DNA of 49,530 nt from Paludibacteraceae bacterium (GTDB lineage: Bacteria; Bacteroidota; Bacteroidia; Bacteroidales; Paludibacteraceae), in the NCBI GenBank assembly GCA_024401455.1, contig JAKSLA010000019.1, positions 1 through 49,530 of the forward strand, read 5' to 3'. The translations under genes were made by a program, and so were the position numbers. Below the pieces are notes generated by a model. The model was not told the DNA's origin. It saw nothing but the letters and a program-made list of their open reading frames with translations, and made no database searches. This document shows positions 1,273 to 9,159 of the stretch, piece after piece. Position 1 is the first letter of the stretch, and the number at the start of each line of letters is the position of its first letter.

Positions 1273-4200
1273 ATGGCTCAAGAAAGAAAATATGAAGGTG
1301 CATTTTATGCTGTAGATGGAGCCTTTTACCAATGTCAGTATGGTTCTATCCCGAGTAAAATTCAAGTGTTGGCCAATCAAGCGGTATTAGTTCAGAATAA
1401 ACCAGTGGTGACAGAAGATGAATTGACGTTTCAACTCCAGTCTATGACTTTTGGCGTTTGTGGGCAAAATCCAGACAAAAAGAATCCCGTATGTCTTTAC
1501 GCAAGCGGAATGTGGGATGCGGATACGATGGTTGAGCATGGTGGAAAGAAAGTGGCGACGGAGGATAGCACGATGAAATGCAGTGTGTTCGGAGGTCAGA
1601 TATCATGTCTCTATCATGGTCAGGTCTTAAATGTTTCACCATCGAACCTATCTGATTTTAATGCCGAGGAAATGAATCTTGTAAATCCCTTTGCCGTTGT
1701 TTTTTCTATGTCTTCCCCTAACCAAGCAAAACCGGTGTCCATTACGACCATTGGCCAGTCGGCAGAAACCGTGAGAATAGGAGGTGAGGTCTCGTTTACC
1801 GCATTTAGGGATAAAGTTAAAAAAAACAAAGTTGCAGAAAATGTCCCTGTACATTGGGCTATTCATACAAGGAAAAGTCGGACGGTTGTTGTGGAAGATA
1901 AGAAGAATAACAAGAAAGGAACCGCAAAGCCTCAAGAGACGAAGTCTGAAGAACGTCAATTTGTACATGAATTATTGCTTTACAAAAATTCAACGTCCTC
2001 TTTTTCTGCTAAATTCTCTGAGCCAGGTGTGTATTATATTGAAGGTTTTGGTTCGAATGAAACTTTGAAGAAGTATTTGGCTTTAAAAAAGAGTAGTTTG
2101 ATTACCGATAATAAACCACCCTTTGATGCGAAATGTTCGGCGAAGGTGGATGTTCTCGCTGAGAATAAAATAGTCAATGTCGTTGCTGCTCCGATTATGC
2201 CGCAGAATGGAGTCTATTATGTAAAACAAGGAAATAGCATAACCTTTACGGTCCAGACCGTTTTGCCGTTCGAAGGGGAACGTGAGTCGGTAGAGTGTAT
2301 CGTGAAGACAAAAAAAGAGGAGGCTGTTTTAGAGGAGATGTATTCTTATGATGCGAAGAAATTGGAGTTGAAATTTACCCCCTTTAATGCAGAGGAGGAT
2401 TATAAACTTACATTTAAATTGTATGCCAAGGAGAATCCAATCATAGAATGTTCTTCTCAACAGACTCTATTTGTACACTCTTATAATGAAGCGGTTGTCC
2501 GTGCAGTTATTCCAAACTTGGATGCGCAGGAAGATGCAAACCGCAGCATTTCATTAAGAAGGCCAGGTGATACACTTTTGTTCTCGGTGGAGAAGAAAGG
2601 CGGAGATGATGGGCAAGATTGGGCTTTGGACAAGGTAGATTGGACTGTGAGTCGGAACAATAAGCAGGTGATGGAGGTAAAGAATGATTCCTCCTCTTTT
2701 GTCTATCTCTTCAAGACGGTAGGCGTCTATACAATCGTTGCCGATTTGAAGGACACGGTATTGAGTGACGGGGGTGTCTTAGGTGCAGAGGCCCCTTATT
2801 CGGACGCTAAAGGGAAATTTAGCAGACGAAAAATCTCTCATACGGTCAATGTTGAGAATAATAGCATTGTGAATATTTGCGTTGGGGCGAATAGGGGAAA
2901 ACGATTTGTAGGTGGTAAGTATCCTATTAAACTTGAATTTTATTATGGACAATCCACGACGAGTGGAGAGCGAAAAATGGTCGTTTGGTCGTCCGATGGA
3001 GCCGACGAAAACGAGTTGAAGCGTGGGGTGTTCTATCCGCAAAGGGCAGGAACGGTGACGATTACTGCAAAATTATTTGAAAAAGAGAAGAGCATTAGTA
3101 TTACGGTGTTAGAAGCAGAAGCACAAGTCTGGAATTTTTGCGACTCGAAGAAGCATGCCATTAACAAGATAGGTCGCAATATGCAATTCGGGATAATGGG
3201 GGCTGTTCCTGCTTGGGCTTGTATTGATCCTGCAATAAAGGAGCAACGGACGGTAACCGTGACATTGTATAGTATGGCAACCGCCTTAAAAAGTTTCACT
3301 GTTCAACTCTCTTCGAAAGGTGAATTTTTCATCGAGAATGTTGATGTTGAGAAGGATGTCGTTTCAGTGGCCAGTCGTAAAATTAAATCATGGGGGGAGG
3401 CTAATAGGTTTGTAAATTTTACTGTGTCAAGAGGCACTCATGTCATTAAGTTGAAAGGCATGTGTGAGAGCAAGGTTGGCGGTGTATATTTGTTGAACTC
3501 AGAAATGAAGGTGCATCAAAAAATTTTCATTGATGGTTATTTCTCGGATTCGGAAGGCGGTAGATTGACGAAGATATTGAATTATGGCGACAAGGTGAAC
3601 ATTCATCTTCAAATATTTAATGTGTCCAGAGAAGAACTGAAGGATATGAAGGTCTTGGTCAGGGAGAACAAGTATTCCTATGATTCGGTGGTTTGGGAGA
3701 AGGTTGGACTTGAGTTGGATAAGGATGGATGTGTTGACATTGAATTACCGACGAGTGAGGGTGGAATAAAACAAGATGACCATAAAAGCGGTGCGCAACC
3801 ACGTTTGTTTTATTTTTGTGTAGAGCGTTTGTTTATCACACTCTTGGGAAGTAAATTCCATACGGAAGCATTTATCTATCCACAATCACCAGGCGACTTA
3901 TACGATTTAAATGTTGAGAAAAGAAAGAAGGCGTTGGTTGAAGCGAAAGATAAGGCAAACGACGACTATAAGGAAAAAATGTCGGAAGCCCGTAGCTATA
4001 TATATCAGTTGAAATTGTCCATTCCCGATGAAAAGAATGAATTTGCAAAAGCTTACGATGCGATGGTGCCTGTTGTAGTGGGGGAGAAGAAAAGTTCGAC
4101 GGAAAGAGGAGAAAAAGAAAACACCAAGTGCTTTTGTTGTAGAGATTTTACTGTGGCAGAGGTAACAGCAATGATAAGAAAATTGCGGGGGGTAAAGAAG

Positions 4201-5610
4201 GATGCTGTATTAGAGAACATTTGGGAAAAGGCGAATACAACGTATAAAGAAGGAGATGTTGATGAGAAAAGTATATTCTCTTTTACAAATGAATTAAATG
4301 TGGCATTCCGAAGATATGGAATTAATAAATGTATTCAGAAAATTACTTTTCTTGCAATAGCAGCAGTTGAGACGGGTAATTTTAAGTCATCTGTGGAGCA
4401 GCCAAGTGGTTTTAAATCGTCTAAAAGTCTTTATCGGGGACGTGGATTAATGCAGTTGACGAATGAAGAAGCGTATAAGAAGTATAATGGGCGAATAGCC
4501 AATGTTAACATTTTAGAAAAACCTCAGATTGTAGGCTCCAAATTGCATTATATTGTAGATTCTGGTGCAACCTATTTTACTAATATTAGATTTAAAGCAG
4601 ATGTAAAATGGAAGTCAGAAAGTAAGGTCGCGTATGAAAAGAAGAGGGCAGAAAAGTTTAAGGAAAGTGTGTCGATTCCTTATCGCCTTTCTTTGTCGCA
4701 ATTGTCTTTATTGATGGAATCTGTCGATGAAGGGAAGTATTATTTTTTGATTAATAAGTTGTTGAATGGTTATTTGAAAGGTCAAGTTGAAGAAGGACCT
4801 AATGGTTGGGAGGATAGGAAAAAGAAACTCGAAACGTTAAAGACGGTGTTTAATTATGATAAGTCGGTATGCATGGGAGTAGAGGAAGATTTCCCCGTTA
4901 ATAGTACGGAATGGCATGATCCATTGGATGTTATGCAAATGTGTTTTTATTCTTTTAATGGAAGAAGATTTCCTTATAATTCCACATTTCATTATAGAGG
5001 AAAAACCCCTCATCAAGGAATAGATTTGTATGCAGAGGTAGGAACTCCTATCTATGCGTGTTTAGATGGACGTATTGTGTTTTGCGGAGAACAGACAGGA
5101 TACGGGAAAATAATTATTCTTGAAATTTATGAGCCATCGCAAATTCTCGCTTTTAAGGAGAGAAGAAAATCAAATTTTGAGAGCATTTTTATAAAGGAAA
5201 ATCAGAAAGAAATGTCTGAAGGCCCAGAATTTGATAAAGATGCATCTTCTTTTTATTTCGCATATGCCCATCTGTCTGAATTTCATGTGATTGATGGTGA
5301 TAGTGTGAAGTCTGGTCAGCAGATAGGCCTTTCCGGAGAGACCGGGAATGCAAAAGGGACGAAAGGACCTCATGTCCATTTTGAAATACGATCAAAAAAA
5401 TTTGCATCAGGAATGAATAGTAGGTGTAATCCTATTCTATATCTTGATTATGAACAATATTTTTACTCCAACGAAGGTGGTGTAGGGCAAGGTAAGAAGG
5501 GAAAGGATGAAGTAATCATATATAGGAAAAATGGTGACGAGCAAACAGTTGAATATAAGGATTTTGCAATATCAGAATTTGCTCAATATAATTATGTAAG
5601 TAAAAAATGA
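1273..5610 (+). CDS. PAAR-like (DUF4280-type) effector with GH19-like lysozyme and M23 endopeptidase domains
   Basis: This 1445-residue protein has no signal peptide. Residues about 10-125 match the DUF4280 PAAR-like pattern (GAFYQCQYG, MTFGVCG, MKCSVFGGQISCLYHGQ), a fold that caps the spike of contractile injection systems. Residues about 150-620 look like immunoglobulin-like beta repeats; about 620-950 is unassigned. A KCFCC element near 952 leads into a GH19/lysozyme-like domain (about 985-1200) with a candidate catalytic Glu1033 in AAVETGNF and GRGLMQLT at 1056-1063. An M23/LytM domain (about 1230-1400) keeps its zinc and catalytic residues: H1247 and D1251 in HQGID, H1333, and H1367/H1369 in HVHFEI. 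Two peptidoglycan-cleaving domains on a spike-tip module indicate an antibacterial effector delivered to the periplasm. The stop overlaps the next gene by four bases. No hcp, vgrG or sheath genes are in view, so the apparatus would be encoded elsewhere. Confidence 0.88.
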   Translation: MAQERKYEGAFYAVDGAFYQCQYGSIPSKIQVLANQAVLVQNKPVVTEDELTFQLQSMTFGVCGQNPDKKNPVCLYASGMWDADTMVEHGGKKVATEDSTMKCSVFGGQISCLYHGQVLNVSPSNLSDFNAEEMNLVNPFAVVFSMSSPNQAKPVSITTIGQSAETVRIGGEVSFTAFRDKVKKNKVAENVPVHWAIHTRKSRTVVVEDKKNNKKGTAKPQETKSEERQFVHELLLYKNSTSSFSAKFSEPGVYYIEGFGSNETLKKYLALKKSSLITDNKPPFDAKCSAKVDVLAENKIVNVVAAPIMPQNGVYYVKQGNSITFTVQTVLPFEGERESVECIVKTKKEEAVLEEMYSYDAKKLELKFTPFNAEEDYKLTFKLYAKENPIIECSSQQTLFVHSYNEAVVRAVIPNLDAQEDANRSISLRRPGDTLLFSVEKKGGDDGQDWALDKVDWTVSRNNKQVMEVKNDSSSFVYLFKTVGVYTIVADLKDTVLSDGGVLGAEAPYSDAKGKFSRRKISHTVNVENNSIVNICVGANRGKRFVGGKYPIKLEFYYGQSTTSGERKMVVWSSDGADENELKRGVFYPQRAGTVTITAKLFEKEKSISITVLEAEAQVWNFCDSKKHAINKIGRNMQFGIMGAVPAWACIDPAIKEQRTVTVTLYSMATALKSFTVQLSSKGEFFIENVDVEKDVVSVASRKIKSWGEANRFVNFTVSRGTHVIKLKGMCESKVGGVYLLNSEMKVHQKIFIDGYFSDSEGGRLTKILNYGDKVNIHLQIFNVSREELKDMKVLVRENKYSYDSVVWEKVGLELDKDGCVDIELPTSEGGIKQDDHKSGAQPRLFYFCVERLFITLLGSKFHTEAFIYPQSPGDLYDLNVEKRKKALVEAKDKANDDYKEKMSEARSYIYQLKLSIPDEKNEFAKAYDAMVPVVVGEKKSSTERGEKENTKCFCCRDFTVAEVTAMIRKLRGVKKDAVLENIWEKANTTYKEGDVDEKSIFSFTNELNVAFRRYGINKCIQKITFLAIAAVETGNFKSSVEQPSGFKSSKSLYRGRGLMQLTNEEAYKKYNGRIANVNILEKPQIVGSKLHYIVDSGATYFTNIRFKADVKWKSESKVAYEKKRAEKFKESVSIPYRLSLSQLSLLMESVDEGKYYFLINKLLNGYLKGQVEEGPNGWEDRKKKLETLKTVFNYDKSVCMGVEEDFPVNSTEWHDPLDVMQMCFYSFNGRRFPYNSTFHYRGKTPHQGIDLYAEVGTPIYACLDGRIVFCGEQTGYGKIIILEIYEPSQILAFKERRKSNFESIFIKENQKEMSEGPEFDKDASSFYFAYAHLSEFHVIDGDSVKSGQQIGLSGETGNAKGTKGPHVHFEIRSKKFASGMNSRCNPILYLDYEQYFYSNEGGVGQGKKGKDEVIIYRKNGDEQTVEYKDFAISEFAQYNYVSKK

Positions 5611-6920
5611 AAACGGTAATTAAAGAAGTGATGATGGGGTTATTACTCGTCAGTTGTGTTGAAAATGCAAGTGTGAGGGAGGAATCCCAAGTCTGTGGCA
5701 CGGAAGTTCATAATGAACAATGTGTCGATAGTTTGTATGATAGTGGAGTGGAATGTAATGTAAAAGTGATAAATGGACTTGATATGAGATGCTTTTTGTC
5801 GCAAGAAGAAAAAAACACAATTAGGAAGAGAGAAAGTAAGTTTAACCATGTGTTATTAGAAAACATTGATGTAATAGAGCAATATACATATAGTTTCGAA
5901 GATTATGAACGTATTACATCCTTGGAATTAAAAGTATTTAATGAGGTGTTGATGCGTTATGGATATAAAACGCCTTCAGAAGATGATTTTTTGGAAAGAA
6001 TAAAAAGGCATTTGGGCGTTAACCCGGACCAATTCTATTTTTCTGAGTTTTACCCCCATAACCTCTCGTTCGCAGAAGATTTGTATATAGTGGAGCGCTG
6101 TATGAAAATATCCACAAAATATCGTTTGGCTTTATTTACACATTACTCTTTTAATACTTTTTTCTCTTTTGAAAGGAAGATAGATACGATAGATGCATAT
6201 GGTCTTGATGTGACTATACATGATGTGAATTCGGATATTGTTGTTGATATTAAGAGGATAGAAACAGAAATTTATGCAAATTTGTTTTTGTTTAATGATA
6301 GTAAATCGGCCAAAGTTTGGTTGATTAATAATGACTTGCAATTTTTTGATGAAATAAGGCACTATGAAGATAGAGAAGTGAATGAACGGAAGTTATCCAA
6401 TTATTTGGCTGAAGTTCCTAATGAATACGATGATTATGATGTAAGTCTTCATGTGAATGAGATAAGGAGTGTTTGGAAAGGTCAAGATATATTGAACTTA
6501 GTTTATGAGAAGACGGATAGTGCAATTGTGGCTTACGAAGAAGACAAAAAAAGAAAAATGGATATTAAAGCCTTTGATTTGTTGGCTATGTATTTGTTGC
6601 GGTATTGTGGAAAAAGAATAAATGAGTATGAAATGGACTTCGTGGAACTAATTTGTCGTTTTGCCAAAATGGAAGTTTCGCTCAATAAAAAACATGCGAA
6701 AGAAGAGTGTCATGGTTATTTCAATGTCGAGGGAACGTCTATCTCTTATAACTTGCTTAATGATAAAGTGATGGAGTTTGCAAAGGAAGAGAATTATTTC
6801 GGTATCGAGGGTTTTGATGAGGTTTTGAAAGTGGTAGAGTGGGATAGAGTACACGATCCTCGAGGTTCCAATGAGTATGAGCCATTTGACTATAGGACCT
6901 TAAATGATTGTAGCGAATAA
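5607..6920 (+). CDS. Unknown lipoprotein, probable immunity protein of the PAAR-GH19-M23 effector
   Basis: This 437-residue protein starts with a short hydrophobic signal ending in LLLVSC, a lipobox with the lipidated cysteine at about residue 17. The mature part is strongly acidic and rich in Tyr and charged residues, with no family I recognise. Its ATG overlaps the effector's TGA (ATGA, 5607-5610), implying translational coupling. An effector that cuts peptidoglycan needs protection in the producer's periplasm, and a membrane-anchored periplasmic lipoprotein encoded in this position is the usual immunity arrangement. That function is inferred from position and predicted location, not from homology. 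A long inverted repeat follows the gene and closes the cassette. Confidence 0.8.
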   Translation: MKTVIKEVMMGLLLVSCVENASVREESQVCGTEVHNEQCVDSLYDSGVECNVKVINGLDMRCFLSQEEKNTIRKRESKFNHVLLENIDVIEQYTYSFEDYERITSLELKVFNEVLMRYGYKTPSEDDFLERIKRHLGVNPDQFYFSEFYPHNLSFAEDLYIVERCMKISTKYRLALFTHYSFNTFFSFERKIDTIDAYGLDVTIHDVNSDIVVDIKRIETEIYANLFLFNDSKSAKVWLINNDLQFFDEIRHYEDREVNERKLSNYLAEVPNEYDDYDVSLHVNEIRSVWKGQDILNLVYEKTDSAIVAYEEDKKRKMDIKAFDLLAMYLLRYCGKRINEYEMDFVELICRFAKMEVSLNKKHAKEECHGYFNVEGTSISYNLLNDKVMEFAKEENYFGIEGFDEVLKVVEWDRVHDPRGSNEYEPFDYRTLNDCSE

Positions 6921-7094: not shown

Positions 7095-7862
7095 TTATTT
7101 TGTGAGTGGAACATCATCAGCATCATCTCCTATTTCATTTTCATCTCTTATAGGAGCCGCGGGTTCATAGCACATAGCGTTCTCTATTACTATTTCAATT
7201 TCAGGGTCAGCCTCTTGGGCCGTTGCTTTCAGACGTTTTTGGAGTTCTTCTTTTTCGCCTGAATCATCGTGTTTTTTGCCAGTCAACAACTCGTAAGCGG
7301 CAATTTCCTCAGCAGTAAGTGTTGCAGTTTCTCCTTTCTTTTGTTTTCGAAGATACTCTATTGTGTTATAGAAAGTTTGTAGGTTCGTTATTACCACTTG
7401 GTGAAAGTCCTTTTCGCCCATTTTTCTAATGTTCAGAACCCCATATTGGTTACTGTTTGCAATTTTGTCGTCTGCTTTTAAGTCGGTATCTATTCCCTTT
7501 TTGTCGATAAGCTTTTCTAAGCAGTCTGGACAAATGCTCTCCACCTCTCCCTCGTAACCGTATCGGGCAAGGGTTATGATACTATCATTGAGTTCGTATG
7601 TGAAAGCATCGGGACGAACGGCGGTTTCTGCTCCGCATACAGAACACGATTTTGATTCTGTAATAGGCTCTGCAGGTTCGTAGCACATGGCGTTATATAA
7701 TTCAGGGGCAAATGTTTCCTCAGAAGCATCGTTTCCTACGATCATCTTCAAACGTTTTATGAGGCTGGGCGTTTCGTTCTCACTGCCCTTCACTGTGTTT
7801 GAACACGAGTTGTTGCCAATCACTAACAAACTGCCGATTAGTGCGGATAGTTTCTTATGCAT
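7095..7862 (-). CDS. Lipoprotein with duplicated NAMCYEPAxPI motif, probable substrate of the adjacent radical SAM enzyme
   Basis: This 255-residue protein begins with a signal-like segment ending at Cys20 (GNNSC, a weak lipobox). The motif NAMCYEPAxPI occurs twice, at residues 57-67 and 228-238. Each copy is preceded about 20 residues earlier by KRLK, so a module of about 33 residues is duplicated. Between the copies are two CxxC pairs (C73/C76 and C111/C114) that could bind zinc or another metal. The gene starts ten bases after the radical SAM stop and shares its promoter. I recall NCBIfam models of a Bacteroidetes radical SAM enzyme paired with a lipoprotein (TIGR04133/TIGR04134), which this pair resembles, but I could not check the match. 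Modification of the repeated motif is inference. Confidence 0.82.
   Translation of the reverse strand: MHKKLSALIGSLLVIGNNSCSNTVKGSENETPSLIKRLKMIVGNDASEETFAPELYNAMCYEPAEPITESKSCSVCGAETAVRPDAFTYELNDSIITLARYGYEGEVESICPDCLEKLIDKKGIDTDLKADDKIANSNQYGVLNIRKMGEKDFHQVVITNLQTFYNTIEYLRKQKKGETATLTAEEIAAYELLTGKKHDDSGEKEELQKRLKATAQEADPEIEIVIENAMCYEPAAPIRDENEIGDDADDVPLTK
7149..7181 (-). repeat. Motif copy 2 (NAMCYEPAAPI) of the lipoprotein
   Basis: This segment encodes residues 228-238 near the C-terminus. It differs from copy 1 only by Ala for Glu at the ninth position, while surrounding sequence has diverged, so the 11-residue core is under selection. Confidence 0.85.
7662..7694 (-). repeat. Motif copy 1 (NAMCYEPAEPI) of the lipoprotein
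   Basis: This segment encodes residues 57-67, close behind the membrane anchor and just before the first CxxC pair. Cys60, Tyr61 and the prolines are candidate modified or recognised residues by comparison with copy 2. Confidence 0.85.
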
Positions 7863-7872
7863 AGACTTGTCT

Positions 7873-8913
7873 TTATTTAATTAATTTGAAAGGGTGGCCT
7901 AAACTGGTATCTAAAGCCGTCGGACTTCCGTGAAGAATGTTGGCCACTTCGCGGCATCCTCCATCGCACAACTTCTGCAAGTTGCATCCGTTGCAAGTCT
8001 GGGGCTTGTACTCACCTTTGGCGAACAGGTTCCAATAGTCCACGTCTTGAATCATCGGTTCCGATAACGCATGGCCCACAATGCGAGGAGAGTGGTTACA
8101 TGTGCGTATCTGTCCTGCTGGGTCAATCACAAAAAAATTCGATGCGGCGGCGCAACGGTACCCGAACCTCAGGTGGCTGTAGGTCGATTCGTCGTCGATG
8201 GTGCAACCTGCTATTTCGGTACCCAAATTTCCTTTTCTGTTGGCGTAGGATAGCACCTCTTCTGCGGTGTCGAGCAAACCCTTTATCTGTTCGTGCGAAA
8301 GCAGGAGTTCTTCTATGTGGCTCAAGCCACGTCCGCCGGGCAGAAACCTGTTCAGCAGTACGGAAGATGCCCCGTTGAGAAGCGCATACGAAATGTTTTG
8401 GAATAGTTCGTGGTAATTGACCTTCGTTACAGTGATGTTTGCGGTGGTGGACACTCCCAGTTCTTTCGCCTTACGGAACCAATGGAGAACTCCCTCCACG
8501 TTATCGACTCCAGTCAGGTCTTTGAAGGTTCTGTAGCCTGGCATGCTTATGCAAAGGTGGACGTTCTGCTCTTTGAAGAAGTGGATCCACTCGTCGGTCA
8601 GTGTTTTGCCGTTCGAAATCTGCACTATCGTCTTTTCGAGTCCCCGTTTTTTACCTTCTTCGCGTATGTGCTTGATAACCTCACGCGTTCCTTCATATAG
8701 AGTGGCTTCGCCCCCAGTAATGGAAAAGTTTTCAACTCCCGCGTCGTATAGTTTGTCTATAATCTGTTTCCACTGGTCCGCGTCCATCTCTTTCCCCATG
8801 GGGTAGGTTGAGTTGGGAGCATACCAAGGGCAGGAACAGAACAAACACTTGTGGTTGCATTTGTAGGTCAGTTCCAAAACTGCCGATTTCGGGAGTTGTA
8901 TATCGTTTCTCAT
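7873..8913 (-). CDS. Radical SAM/SPASM enzyme paired with a lipoprotein
   Basis: This 346-residue enzyme has the radical SAM cluster motif C19-x3-C23-x2-C26 (KCNHKCLFC), with an extra Cys28, then the SAM-binding ITGGEATLY segment. The C-terminal third is Cys-rich (RTCNH, then TCNGC, KLCDGGC), as in SPASM domains that hold auxiliary iron-sulfur clusters in peptide- and protein-modifying enzymes. It is the first gene of a two-gene operon with the motif-repeat lipoprotein and has a near-perfect promoter. Family knowledge suggests a cytoplasmic enzyme that alters the partner before its export. The reaction (thioether link, epimerisation, oxidation or other) cannot be told from sequence. Confidence 0.9.
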   Translation of the reverse strand: MRNDIQLPKSAVLELTYKCNHKCLFCSCPWYAPNSTYPMGKEMDADQWKQIIDKLYDAGVENFSITGGEATLYEGTREVIKHIREEGKKRGLEKTIVQISNGKTLTDEWIHFFKEQNVHLCISMPGYRTFKDLTGVDNVEGVLHWFRKAKELGVSTTANITVTKVNYHELFQNISYALLNGASSVLLNRFLPGGRGLSHIEELLLSHEQIKGLLDTAEEVLSYANRKGNLGTEIAGCTIDDESTYSHLRFGYRCAAASNFFVIDPAGQIRTCNHSPRIVGHALSEPMIQDVDYWNLFAKGEYKPQTCNGCNLQKLCDGGCREVANILHGSPTALDTSLGHPFKLIK

Positions 8914-8975: not shown

Positions 8976-9006
8976 CAAATATAGCAAATAATCATATACA
9001 AACAAA
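8976..9006 (-). promoter_or_regulatory. Promoter of the radical SAM/lipoprotein operon
   Basis: Read on the minus strand: TTTG (9006-9003), 19 bases, TATATTTG (8983-8976). This matches the Bacteroidetes consensus exactly. Transcription would start near 8969, about 55 nt before the start codon. The -33 box lies inside the T run of the upstream tRNA terminator. Confidence 0.85.
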
Positions 9007-9082: not shown

Positions 9083-9159
9083 TGGTGACCCCGGCGGGAT
9101 TCTAACCCGCGATCTTCAGAACCGGAATCTGACATTCTATACAACTGAACTACGGAGCC
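9083..9159 (-). tRNA. tRNA-Arg (anticodon CCG), CCA encoded
   Basis: The minus strand folds as a complete cloverleaf: acceptor GGCTCCG/CGGGGTC, a four-pair D stem, anticodon stem TCAGA/TCTGA around loop TTCCGGT with anticodon CCG, five-base variable region, and T stem GCGGG/CCCGC with loop TTAGAAT. Discriminator A is followed by an encoded CCA (9085-9083). Confidence 0.95.

Follow-up and report, generated by a model that had tools for sequence, protein, structure and literature searches.

A radical SAM/SPASM enzyme family co-inherited with Ala-x-Cys-Tyr zinc-ribbon proteins: a candidate protein-maturation system

We analyzed a stretch of 49,530 nucleotides (the window) from a Paludibacteraceae bacterium (contig JAKSLA010000019.1 of assembly GCA_024401455.1), in which two genes on the minus strand encode a radical S-adenosylmethionine (SAM)/SPASM enzyme and, 10 bp downstream, a lipoprotein. 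The enzyme (346 residues; 7873–8913, minus strand) is a proposed maturase on the basis of domain matches, alignment and an AlphaFold model, and the lipoprotein (255 residues; 7095–7862, minus strand) is, from its open reading frame (ORF) and its relatives, a zinc-ribbon protein and proposed substrate with two modification cassettes. The domain assignment on which the original prediction was built proved correct: the enzyme matches PF04055 (radical SAM, 74.7 bits) and TIGR04085 (SPASM, 37.5 bits against a cut-off of 27). It carries the CxxxCxxC motif of the superfamily and a SPASM CX2CX5CX3C motif with an upstream GX4C (C254, C272, C307, C310, C316 and C320). As set out below, the enzyme and a motif-bearing protein of this kind belong together and are co-inherited.

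The lipoprotein, all of whose features lie on the minus strand, begins with a putative signal peptide, read by eye, that ends in the lipobox-like ...GNNSC20 (7803–7862); Cys20 is retained in at least nine of the ten rows of the lipoprotein profile alignment A6. Two copies of an 11-residue motif stand near its two ends, NAMCYEPAEPI at residues 57–67 (7662–7694) and NAMCYEPAAPI at residues 228–238 (7149–7181), identical at 10 of 11 residues, in line with the near-identity noticed from the sequence. Each copy is preceded by KRLK (residues 36–39 and 209–212), and this resemblance, also remarked on beforehand, falls within an LxxxLxxL element conserved in relatives, with which two candidate recognition helices align: SLIKRLKMIV (residues 33–42; 7737–7766) and ELQKRLKATA (residues 206–215; 7218–7247). 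Between the motif copies, AlphaFold predicts a folded α/β domain (approximately residues 69–195; 7278–7658), and the alignment places there two Cys pairs, CSVC (residues 73–76) and CPDC (residues 111–114; together 7521–7646), as putative zinc ligands. Ten-residue confidence means are 71–94 over residues 71–200 and 50–65 in the stretches holding the motif copies, which are probably flexible judging from the model. The helix at residues 34–42 is predicted at low confidence and that at residues 201–217 at a predicted local distance difference test score (pLDDT) of ~71–74. Foldseek matched the model to no PDB fold at E ≤ 0.001. Searches of NCBIfam and Pfam returned nothing over cut-off for the lipoprotein (just two NCBIfam matches up to E 1, at E 0.016 and 0.092, neither of them to TIGR04134), and likewise nothing above cut-off for ten other partner proteins with the Ala-x-Cys-Tyr (AxCY) motif.

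The NAMCYEPAxPI repeat is not a product of chance: a degenerate DNA pattern for NAMCYEP matched twice in the window and in none of 100 shuffles. The two 33-base copies differ by five synonymous and two nonsynonymous changes (pS 0.75, pN 0.08, Fisher P 0.0016), and since most differences are synonymous, the repeat is not a recent DNA duplication; the comparison points to selection keeping the motif at the protein level. A strict MCYEPAxP DNA pattern matched the window genome alone among 395 genomes sampled from its class, and among the partners seen, the window protein alone has two complete cassettes.

Relatives of the enzyme were collected in two ways. An alignment of two enzyme sequences, searched against GTDB contigs, returned 17 loci, of which 14 were accepted as relatives; the others (L023–L025, 20–26% identity) are other radical SAM proteins and were dropped. 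Whole-genome searches with a 14-row enzyme alignment at E ≤ 1e-50, whose counts include genomes known from the contig search, found the enzyme in 7/300 genomes sampled from the family of the window genome, in 4/390 from the order of one Treponema genome and in 3/241 from the order of one Melainabacteria genome. Including the window, there are 20 enzyme loci in 18 genomes from three phyla (Bacteroidales, Treponema and Melainabacteria/Gastranaerophilales).

All 18 enzyme-bearing genomes encode an AxCY partner, and at 17 of the 20 enzyme loci it is encoded by the adjacent gene. At the remaining loci, L013, L015 and L018, all from Bacteroidales, the genome has one cassette lipoprotein that is encoded on a different contig, no closer than 5.6 kb to a contig end. 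These unlinked partners give the strongest single result, as they cannot be put down to simple linkage. An apparent absence of partners from three enzyme genomes was traced to a DNA pattern that demanded a GA-starting codon (Asp or Glu) after Tyr, and a wider pattern found them. The proposal that enzyme and motif protein form a pair is thereby borne out, and inspection of the ORF lists found no motif-free lipoprotein homolog next to this enzyme. In L013 (1836–2931), L015 (5043–6104) and L018 (2808–3867), the enzyme gene is followed by genes for a similar small membrane protein and a WG-repeat protein; in L015 the former has no Pfam match and the latter matches PF14903.

Searches from the partner side gave a consistent picture. 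The lipoprotein profile A6 matched 6/300 genomes at the family level, all among the 7/300 with the enzyme, both searches being taken to cover the same 300 genomes. Because rows of A6 came from at least four of the six matched genomes (G000, G496, G479, and G538 with G457), what is informative is the lack of matches in the remaining genomes. In the seventh genome with the enzyme (G498), the tag is the same and is carried by another partner scaffold; there, within L080:3708–7002 (contig G498:C92), three genes for FHA-domain proteins (PF00498, 62.8–70.9 bits; one also with CD225) lie upstream of the AxCY zinc-ribbon gene. The window lipoprotein alone as query matched 2/61 genomes, both enzyme-bearing, and the Treponema-peptide profile A5 matched 2/271, again both enzyme-bearing, one of which had lent rows. 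A5 also found an unlinked extra cassette protein (L094:1414–1629, contig G720:C27), in which the element IETDLKDLP is followed by ADCYF; the ORFs flanking it appear unrelated to the pair.

The same co-occurrence and a conserved contact motif would be expected if the AxCY protein were not the substrate but assisted the enzyme as an electron donor, docking protein or regulator, touching it with the Cys-Tyr loop, and the substrate were encoded elsewhere; a partner unlinked at 3/20 loci would fit this too. Tandem paralogs, duplication of the cassette within one protein and the use of unlike scaffolds are, however, typical of substrates, and reading by eye did not reveal a third gene shared by the loci. 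We regard such a role as improbable.

The cassette itself is small. In 28 non-window partners, each with exactly one AxCY, an xLxxxLxxL decamer starts 17–27 residues ahead of the Ala; its central Leu is present in 27/28 and its last position is Leu or Ile in 26/28. In the two window copies, the distance from decamer start to Ala is 25 and 23 residues. Across the cassettes, the spacer between LxxxLxxL and AxCY is about 7–17 residues. L022:2239–2670, the start of which is masked, and L094 were left out of this table. With both window copies included, Ala, Cys and Tyr are present in 30/30 cassettes, Met precedes AxCY's Cys at –1 in 26, Asp or Glu follows at C+2 in 17, and the Pro positions vary. 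Thus, the expectation of a conserved Cys-Tyr with conserved prolines held in part: A-x-C-Y is kept in the homolog alignment, and the prolines and the Glu are not. A profile built without the window detected copy 2 through the element as well as the motif (27.5 bits), and copy 1 through its motif region (10.7 bits); shuffled sequences reached the window element scores at fractions of 0.057 (copy 1) and 0.026 (copy 2). As far as the sequences indicate, support for the upstream element is strong at the family level and no more than suggestive for either window copy taken singly.

The arrangement of an upstream element and a core, LxxxLxxL and AxCY, co-inherited with an enzyme and with a presumptive recognition role for the element, is that of ribosomally synthesized and post-translationally modified peptides (RiPPs). 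The proteins that carry it vary. The cassette precedes a CxxC-containing domain in the lipoproteins and in Melainabacteria proteins with, by eye, an N-terminal membrane segment, and in Treponema proteins of 60–100 residues it comes after a CxxGHxY...CPxC knuckle. A knuckle of the same type also precedes it in a 179-residue Treponema protein (L045) and, at L030, in a Bacteroidales protein whose membrane segment is C-terminal. Candidate zinc-binding elements, recognized from sequence, therefore accompany the tag, ahead of it or behind it, and fold and predicted location differ. The location originally proposed, a surface or periplasmic lipoprotein, does not extend to the family: the Treponema partners have no signal peptide by eye, and the Bacteroidales protein just mentioned ends in a membrane segment.

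Most studied radical SAM/SPASM maturases act on small dedicated precursor peptides, and a conventional RiPP, with the zinc-ribbon part as an oversized leader and the AxCY tail cleaved and exported as a small natural product, has some features in its favor here. Most Treponema partners are 60–100 residues long with the motif in the C-terminal half and at least two tandem paralogs beside the enzyme; an HELFH metallopeptidase-like ORF follows the pair at L012:5586–6656 (best Pfam match eCIS_core, 21.4 bits, cut-off 22); and a MATE-type exporter gene (PF01554; 9915–11267) lies two protein genes upstream in the window. That gene is, however, separated from the pair by a tRNA-Arg gene (9083–9159, minus strand, ~170 bp upstream of the pair) and, beyond it, a cytidylate-kinase-like gene (PF13189). 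No recurrent protease or exporter was seen next to the pair when the loci, whose neighbors were profiled in part, were inspected by eye. Moreover, the motif lies ahead of a conserved domain in the lipoproteins and the Melainabacteria proteins, and near both ends of one protein in the window. On balance, a cleaved and exported tail is unlikely.

The enzymes are conserved at the positions expected of the superfamily. Eleven Cys residues are invariant in 19/19 aligned family enzymes: four at the radical SAM cluster motif CNHKCLFCSC (8830–8859, minus strand; C19, C23 and C26, with C28 as an additional invariant residue) and seven in the SPASM region (7909–8205, minus strand; Cys237, 254, 272, 307, 310, 316 and 320), where Asp335 is invariant as well. 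Thirteen other aligned enzymes are 47–76% identical to that of the window. A SPASM domain with seven Cys has been reported for QhpD, CteB and Tte1186, according to the consulted sections of PMC10352776. Asp335 was considered as a counterpart of the Asp ligand of PqqE and rejected: the PqqE text consulted (PMC5715301) assigns that residue, Asp319 at the AuxII position, to position three of the CX2CX5 motif, and the spacing suggests Cys316 as its equivalent here, a difference from PqqE. Three of the four Treponema enzymes (L016, L019 and L045; ORFs of 467–484 residues) have a C-terminal extension of ~110 residues, which the fourth (L017, 351 residues) and the other family enzymes do not have. 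Several aligned enzymes, among them L013, L015, L016 and L018, were read from near the tblastn start and not from the ORF start.

Neither window protein lies over any family-specific NCBIfam or Pfam cut-off. The best NCBIfam profiles of the enzyme are PqqE (TIGR02109, 68 bits) and then PapB (NF047865, 64.1 bits), both nearly full length and, for PqqE, including the SPASM region; these two gave the lowest best E-values among profiles and were matched by 14/14 family members scanned. The AlphaFold model of the enzyme (pLDDT 83.6, predicted template modeling score (pTM) 0.86) matched SkfB, SuiB, anSMEcpe and CteB first in a Foldseek search of the PDB, with viperins and PqqE also found; identity to SkfB, CteB and SuiB is 16–22% in these matches. 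A sequence profile of the enzyme found six PDB sequences at E ≤ 1e-10, namely SkfB, 5wgg (CteB), TigE (8vpo), PqqE and two viperin-like proteins. SkfB, CteB and SuiB have extra leader-binding domains, which the 346-residue window enzyme seems to lack. Both SkfB, in the abstract of its report, and CteB, in the title of entry 5wgg, are described as thioether-forming.

The anSMEcpe matches bear on a different chemistry. Anaerobic sulfatase maturases (anSMEs) convert a motif Cys to formylglycine in a secreted protein before export, and the sulfatase target motif is CxPxR; QhpD and the anSMEs are both SPASM enzymes whose target residues lie within proteins that are later exported. The present pair could follow the anSME logic if Cys (or Tyr) were oxidized or epimerized singly, with no cross-link: the motif Cys is internal to an exported, otherwise ordinary protein, no leader cleavage is implied, and anSMEcpe chains are among the best structural matches (query template modeling (TM) score 0.71–0.74). 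Yet the anSME profile match is weak (46.7 bits against a cut-off of 349) and partial, with its best stretch at residues 16–136, and QhpD, like anSME, is reached through weak partial profile matches only (TIGR03906 and TIGR03942). CxPxR-type targets are absent from the cassettes, and Tyr is conserved as strictly as Cys. Modification of a single residue thus retains a small but real chance of being correct.

Taken together, these features make it probable, in our judgment from sequence, that the pair is a protein-maturation system in which the SPASM maturase recognizes a helix and modifies the Cys of AxCY, most likely to a thioether; the AxCY motif is very probably the site of modification. The LxxxLxxL element, as a helix, would be gripped by the enzyme like a leader-peptide address, and the downstream AxCY loop would be presented to the active site. 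A 5′-deoxyadenosyl radical would then abstract a hydrogen, and the Cys thiol would be joined to carbon as a thioether with a loss of 2 Da, the acceptor being either the Ala at –2 (at its α-carbon) or the Tyr at +1. A thioether is the preferred guess, given that the Cys is conserved and that thioether formers are among the enzymes nearest in SPASM Cys count, profile and fold. With two cassettes, the window lipoprotein would be expected to be modified twice. This would take place in the cytosol, ahead of Sec export and lipidation, since the enzyme has no signal peptide by eye. The modified loops would stay in the working protein, with no peptide released, and may have a structural, redox or metal-binding role.

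The ranthipeptide maturase PapB resembles this reading in its Cys-centered SPASM chemistry. In the excerpts of PMC9413430 consulted, PapB is leader-directed, its substrate PapA has repeated Cys-x3-Asp/Glu motifs, and Cys is linked to Asp or Glu with a change of –2 Da. Unlike in PapA, the acid is not conserved here, and the motif is carried on zinc-ribbon proteins. A PapB-type Cys-Xn-Asp/Glu acceptor is not general in the cassettes, 17/30 of which have Asp or Glu directly after Tyr. With only Ala, Cys and Tyr kept throughout, the thiol would probably be joined to Ala (–2) or Tyr (+1) and not to an acid as in PapB. PqqA has a Glu/Tyr pair with a set spacing, and the AxCY cassette has no such spaced pair.

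Several points weigh against the proposed maturation. The modification is deduced from sequence, which does not fix the chemistry, and SPASM enzymes also form C–C bonds or oxidize single residues. A Cys-to-Asp/Glu thioether as the general product was rejected, as L017:3574–3756 has no acid after Cys. The PapB and PqqE scores of 64 and 68 bits are far under membership (cut-offs of 340 and 381), and an eighth SPASM Cys, found in 8/19 family enzymes, is absent from the window enzyme. The 30/30 conservation of Ala, Cys and Tyr is partly by construction, as the expression A[MDSL]CY served to extract the cassettes; the finding of an AxCY protein for each enzyme locus or genome is not. With the motifs masked, the profile detects the copy 2 element only, at 2.2 bits; the G498 partner lacks the central Leu of the upstream element; and a second CY in L016:1987–2289 (PPPCYAP) is without Ala.

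The original prediction also proposed a resemblance to TIGR04133/TIGR04134, and the two systems are alike in that a Bacteroidota radical SAM/SPASM gene stands beside a lipoprotein gene. Profile searches refuted membership. In the own-genome search for TIGR04133 (rSAM_w_lipo; cut-off 425 bits), which scored first-look candidates only, the one protein over the cut-off is on contig G000:C49 (569.7 bits) and the window enzyme is not listed among the matches at E ≤ 0.001; TIGR04133 is not among the best 25 of the 67 NCBIfam matches of the window enzyme. The window lipoprotein has no match to TIGR04134 (lipo_with_rSAM; cut-off 39.8 bits), whose member in this genome is a 150-residue protein (L001:2580–3032, 58.3 bits). 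Both systems thus occur in one genome, the true TIGR04133/TIGR04134 pair being at L001:1185–3032 on G000:C49. The C49 enzyme is of another family (21% identity to that of the window), the lipoprotein is a different one, and the C49 lipoproteins are without AxCY. Beside the C49 pair, an 89-residue lipoprotein-like ORF with KCMYGGPESFYRPI near its end has no NCBIfam match and is possibly a second substrate type. Its loosely similar Cys/Tyr/Pro stretch, beside a true TIGR04133 gene, and the shared phylum and gene types would favor identity of the two systems, of which, given the searches above, there is next to no prospect. We found no paper on TIGR04133/TIGR04134 in the open-licence literature.

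The superfamily and the leader-guided logic are already known. For the enzyme family and the AxCY cassette, we found no description in the open-licence literature, the scope of our search; radical SAM RiPP atlases in subscription journals lie outside it. In this family, which falls under no specific NCBIfam or Pfam model, the enzyme tracks a minimal element-plus-AxCY cassette on zinc-ribbon proteins across three phyla, also in trans, and the pair is now separated from the easily confused TIGR04133/TIGR04134. It is a directly testable enzyme–substrate candidate, in which the conserved Cys-Tyr narrows the possible chemistry, and possibly a natural case of a transplantable radical-modification tag. 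More tentatively, and with the balance of our expectation against it, AxCY with its short helix could be a portable tag moved between unrelated scaffolds (lipoproteins, membrane-anchored zinc ribbons and small zinc-knuckle proteins), in which one dedicated radical SAM enzyme, also acting in trans, makes a permanent Cys-Tyr or Cys-Ala cross-link, a metal- or redox-active group borne by the protein, in Bacteroidota, Spirochaetota and Melainabacteria. If this were true, the product would be a new protein-derived structure and not a secreted peptide.

In a tree of 19 family enzymes, from which, as from the alignments, the half-masked L022 enzyme was excluded, the Melainabacteria grouped together (support 100/100) and clustering was mostly by phylum; good support was obtained for 6 of the 17 inner branches, and 5 are open. 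Enzyme-bearing G479 is, by matching coordinates, Candidatus Physcocola equi (NCBI family Paludibacteraceae), from the same family group as the window genome. A search of three further genomes from the genus of the window genome (G001–G003) did not find the enzyme, which indicates that the pair is patchily distributed. Viral contigs held no relatives of the lipoprotein or the enzyme, and phage and plasmid collections gave no match at E ≤ 1e-20. Given the patchy occurrence, the tRNA-Arg gene upstream of the pair could mark an insertion site.

Upstream of the operon, a promoter-like TTTG-N19-TATATTTG (8976–9006, minus strand) matches the Bacteroidetes-type consensus. The window has three such matches against 1.85 expected by chance, a count not above chance for the window as a whole, so the predicted single promoter common to both genes has a pattern at the right place and is plausible only. 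On the plus strand, 1273–6920 holds the gene for a 1445-residue protein, with DUF4280 at its N terminus and an M23 peptidase domain at its C terminus, followed by an overlapping 437-residue lipoprotein-like ORF with no Pfam match; together they resemble a secreted cell-wall hydrolase and, possibly, its immunity gene. In Melainabacteria, three loci (L020:5039–7083, L021:4890–6647 and L082:1–1425) have a second radical SAM gene beside the AxCY system, in L021 with a SPASM domain by Pfam. This gene adjoins secreted-looking proteins with YGVxFxDDIxxTYP-like stretches, repeated in L021, and the two are perhaps another enzyme–substrate pair.

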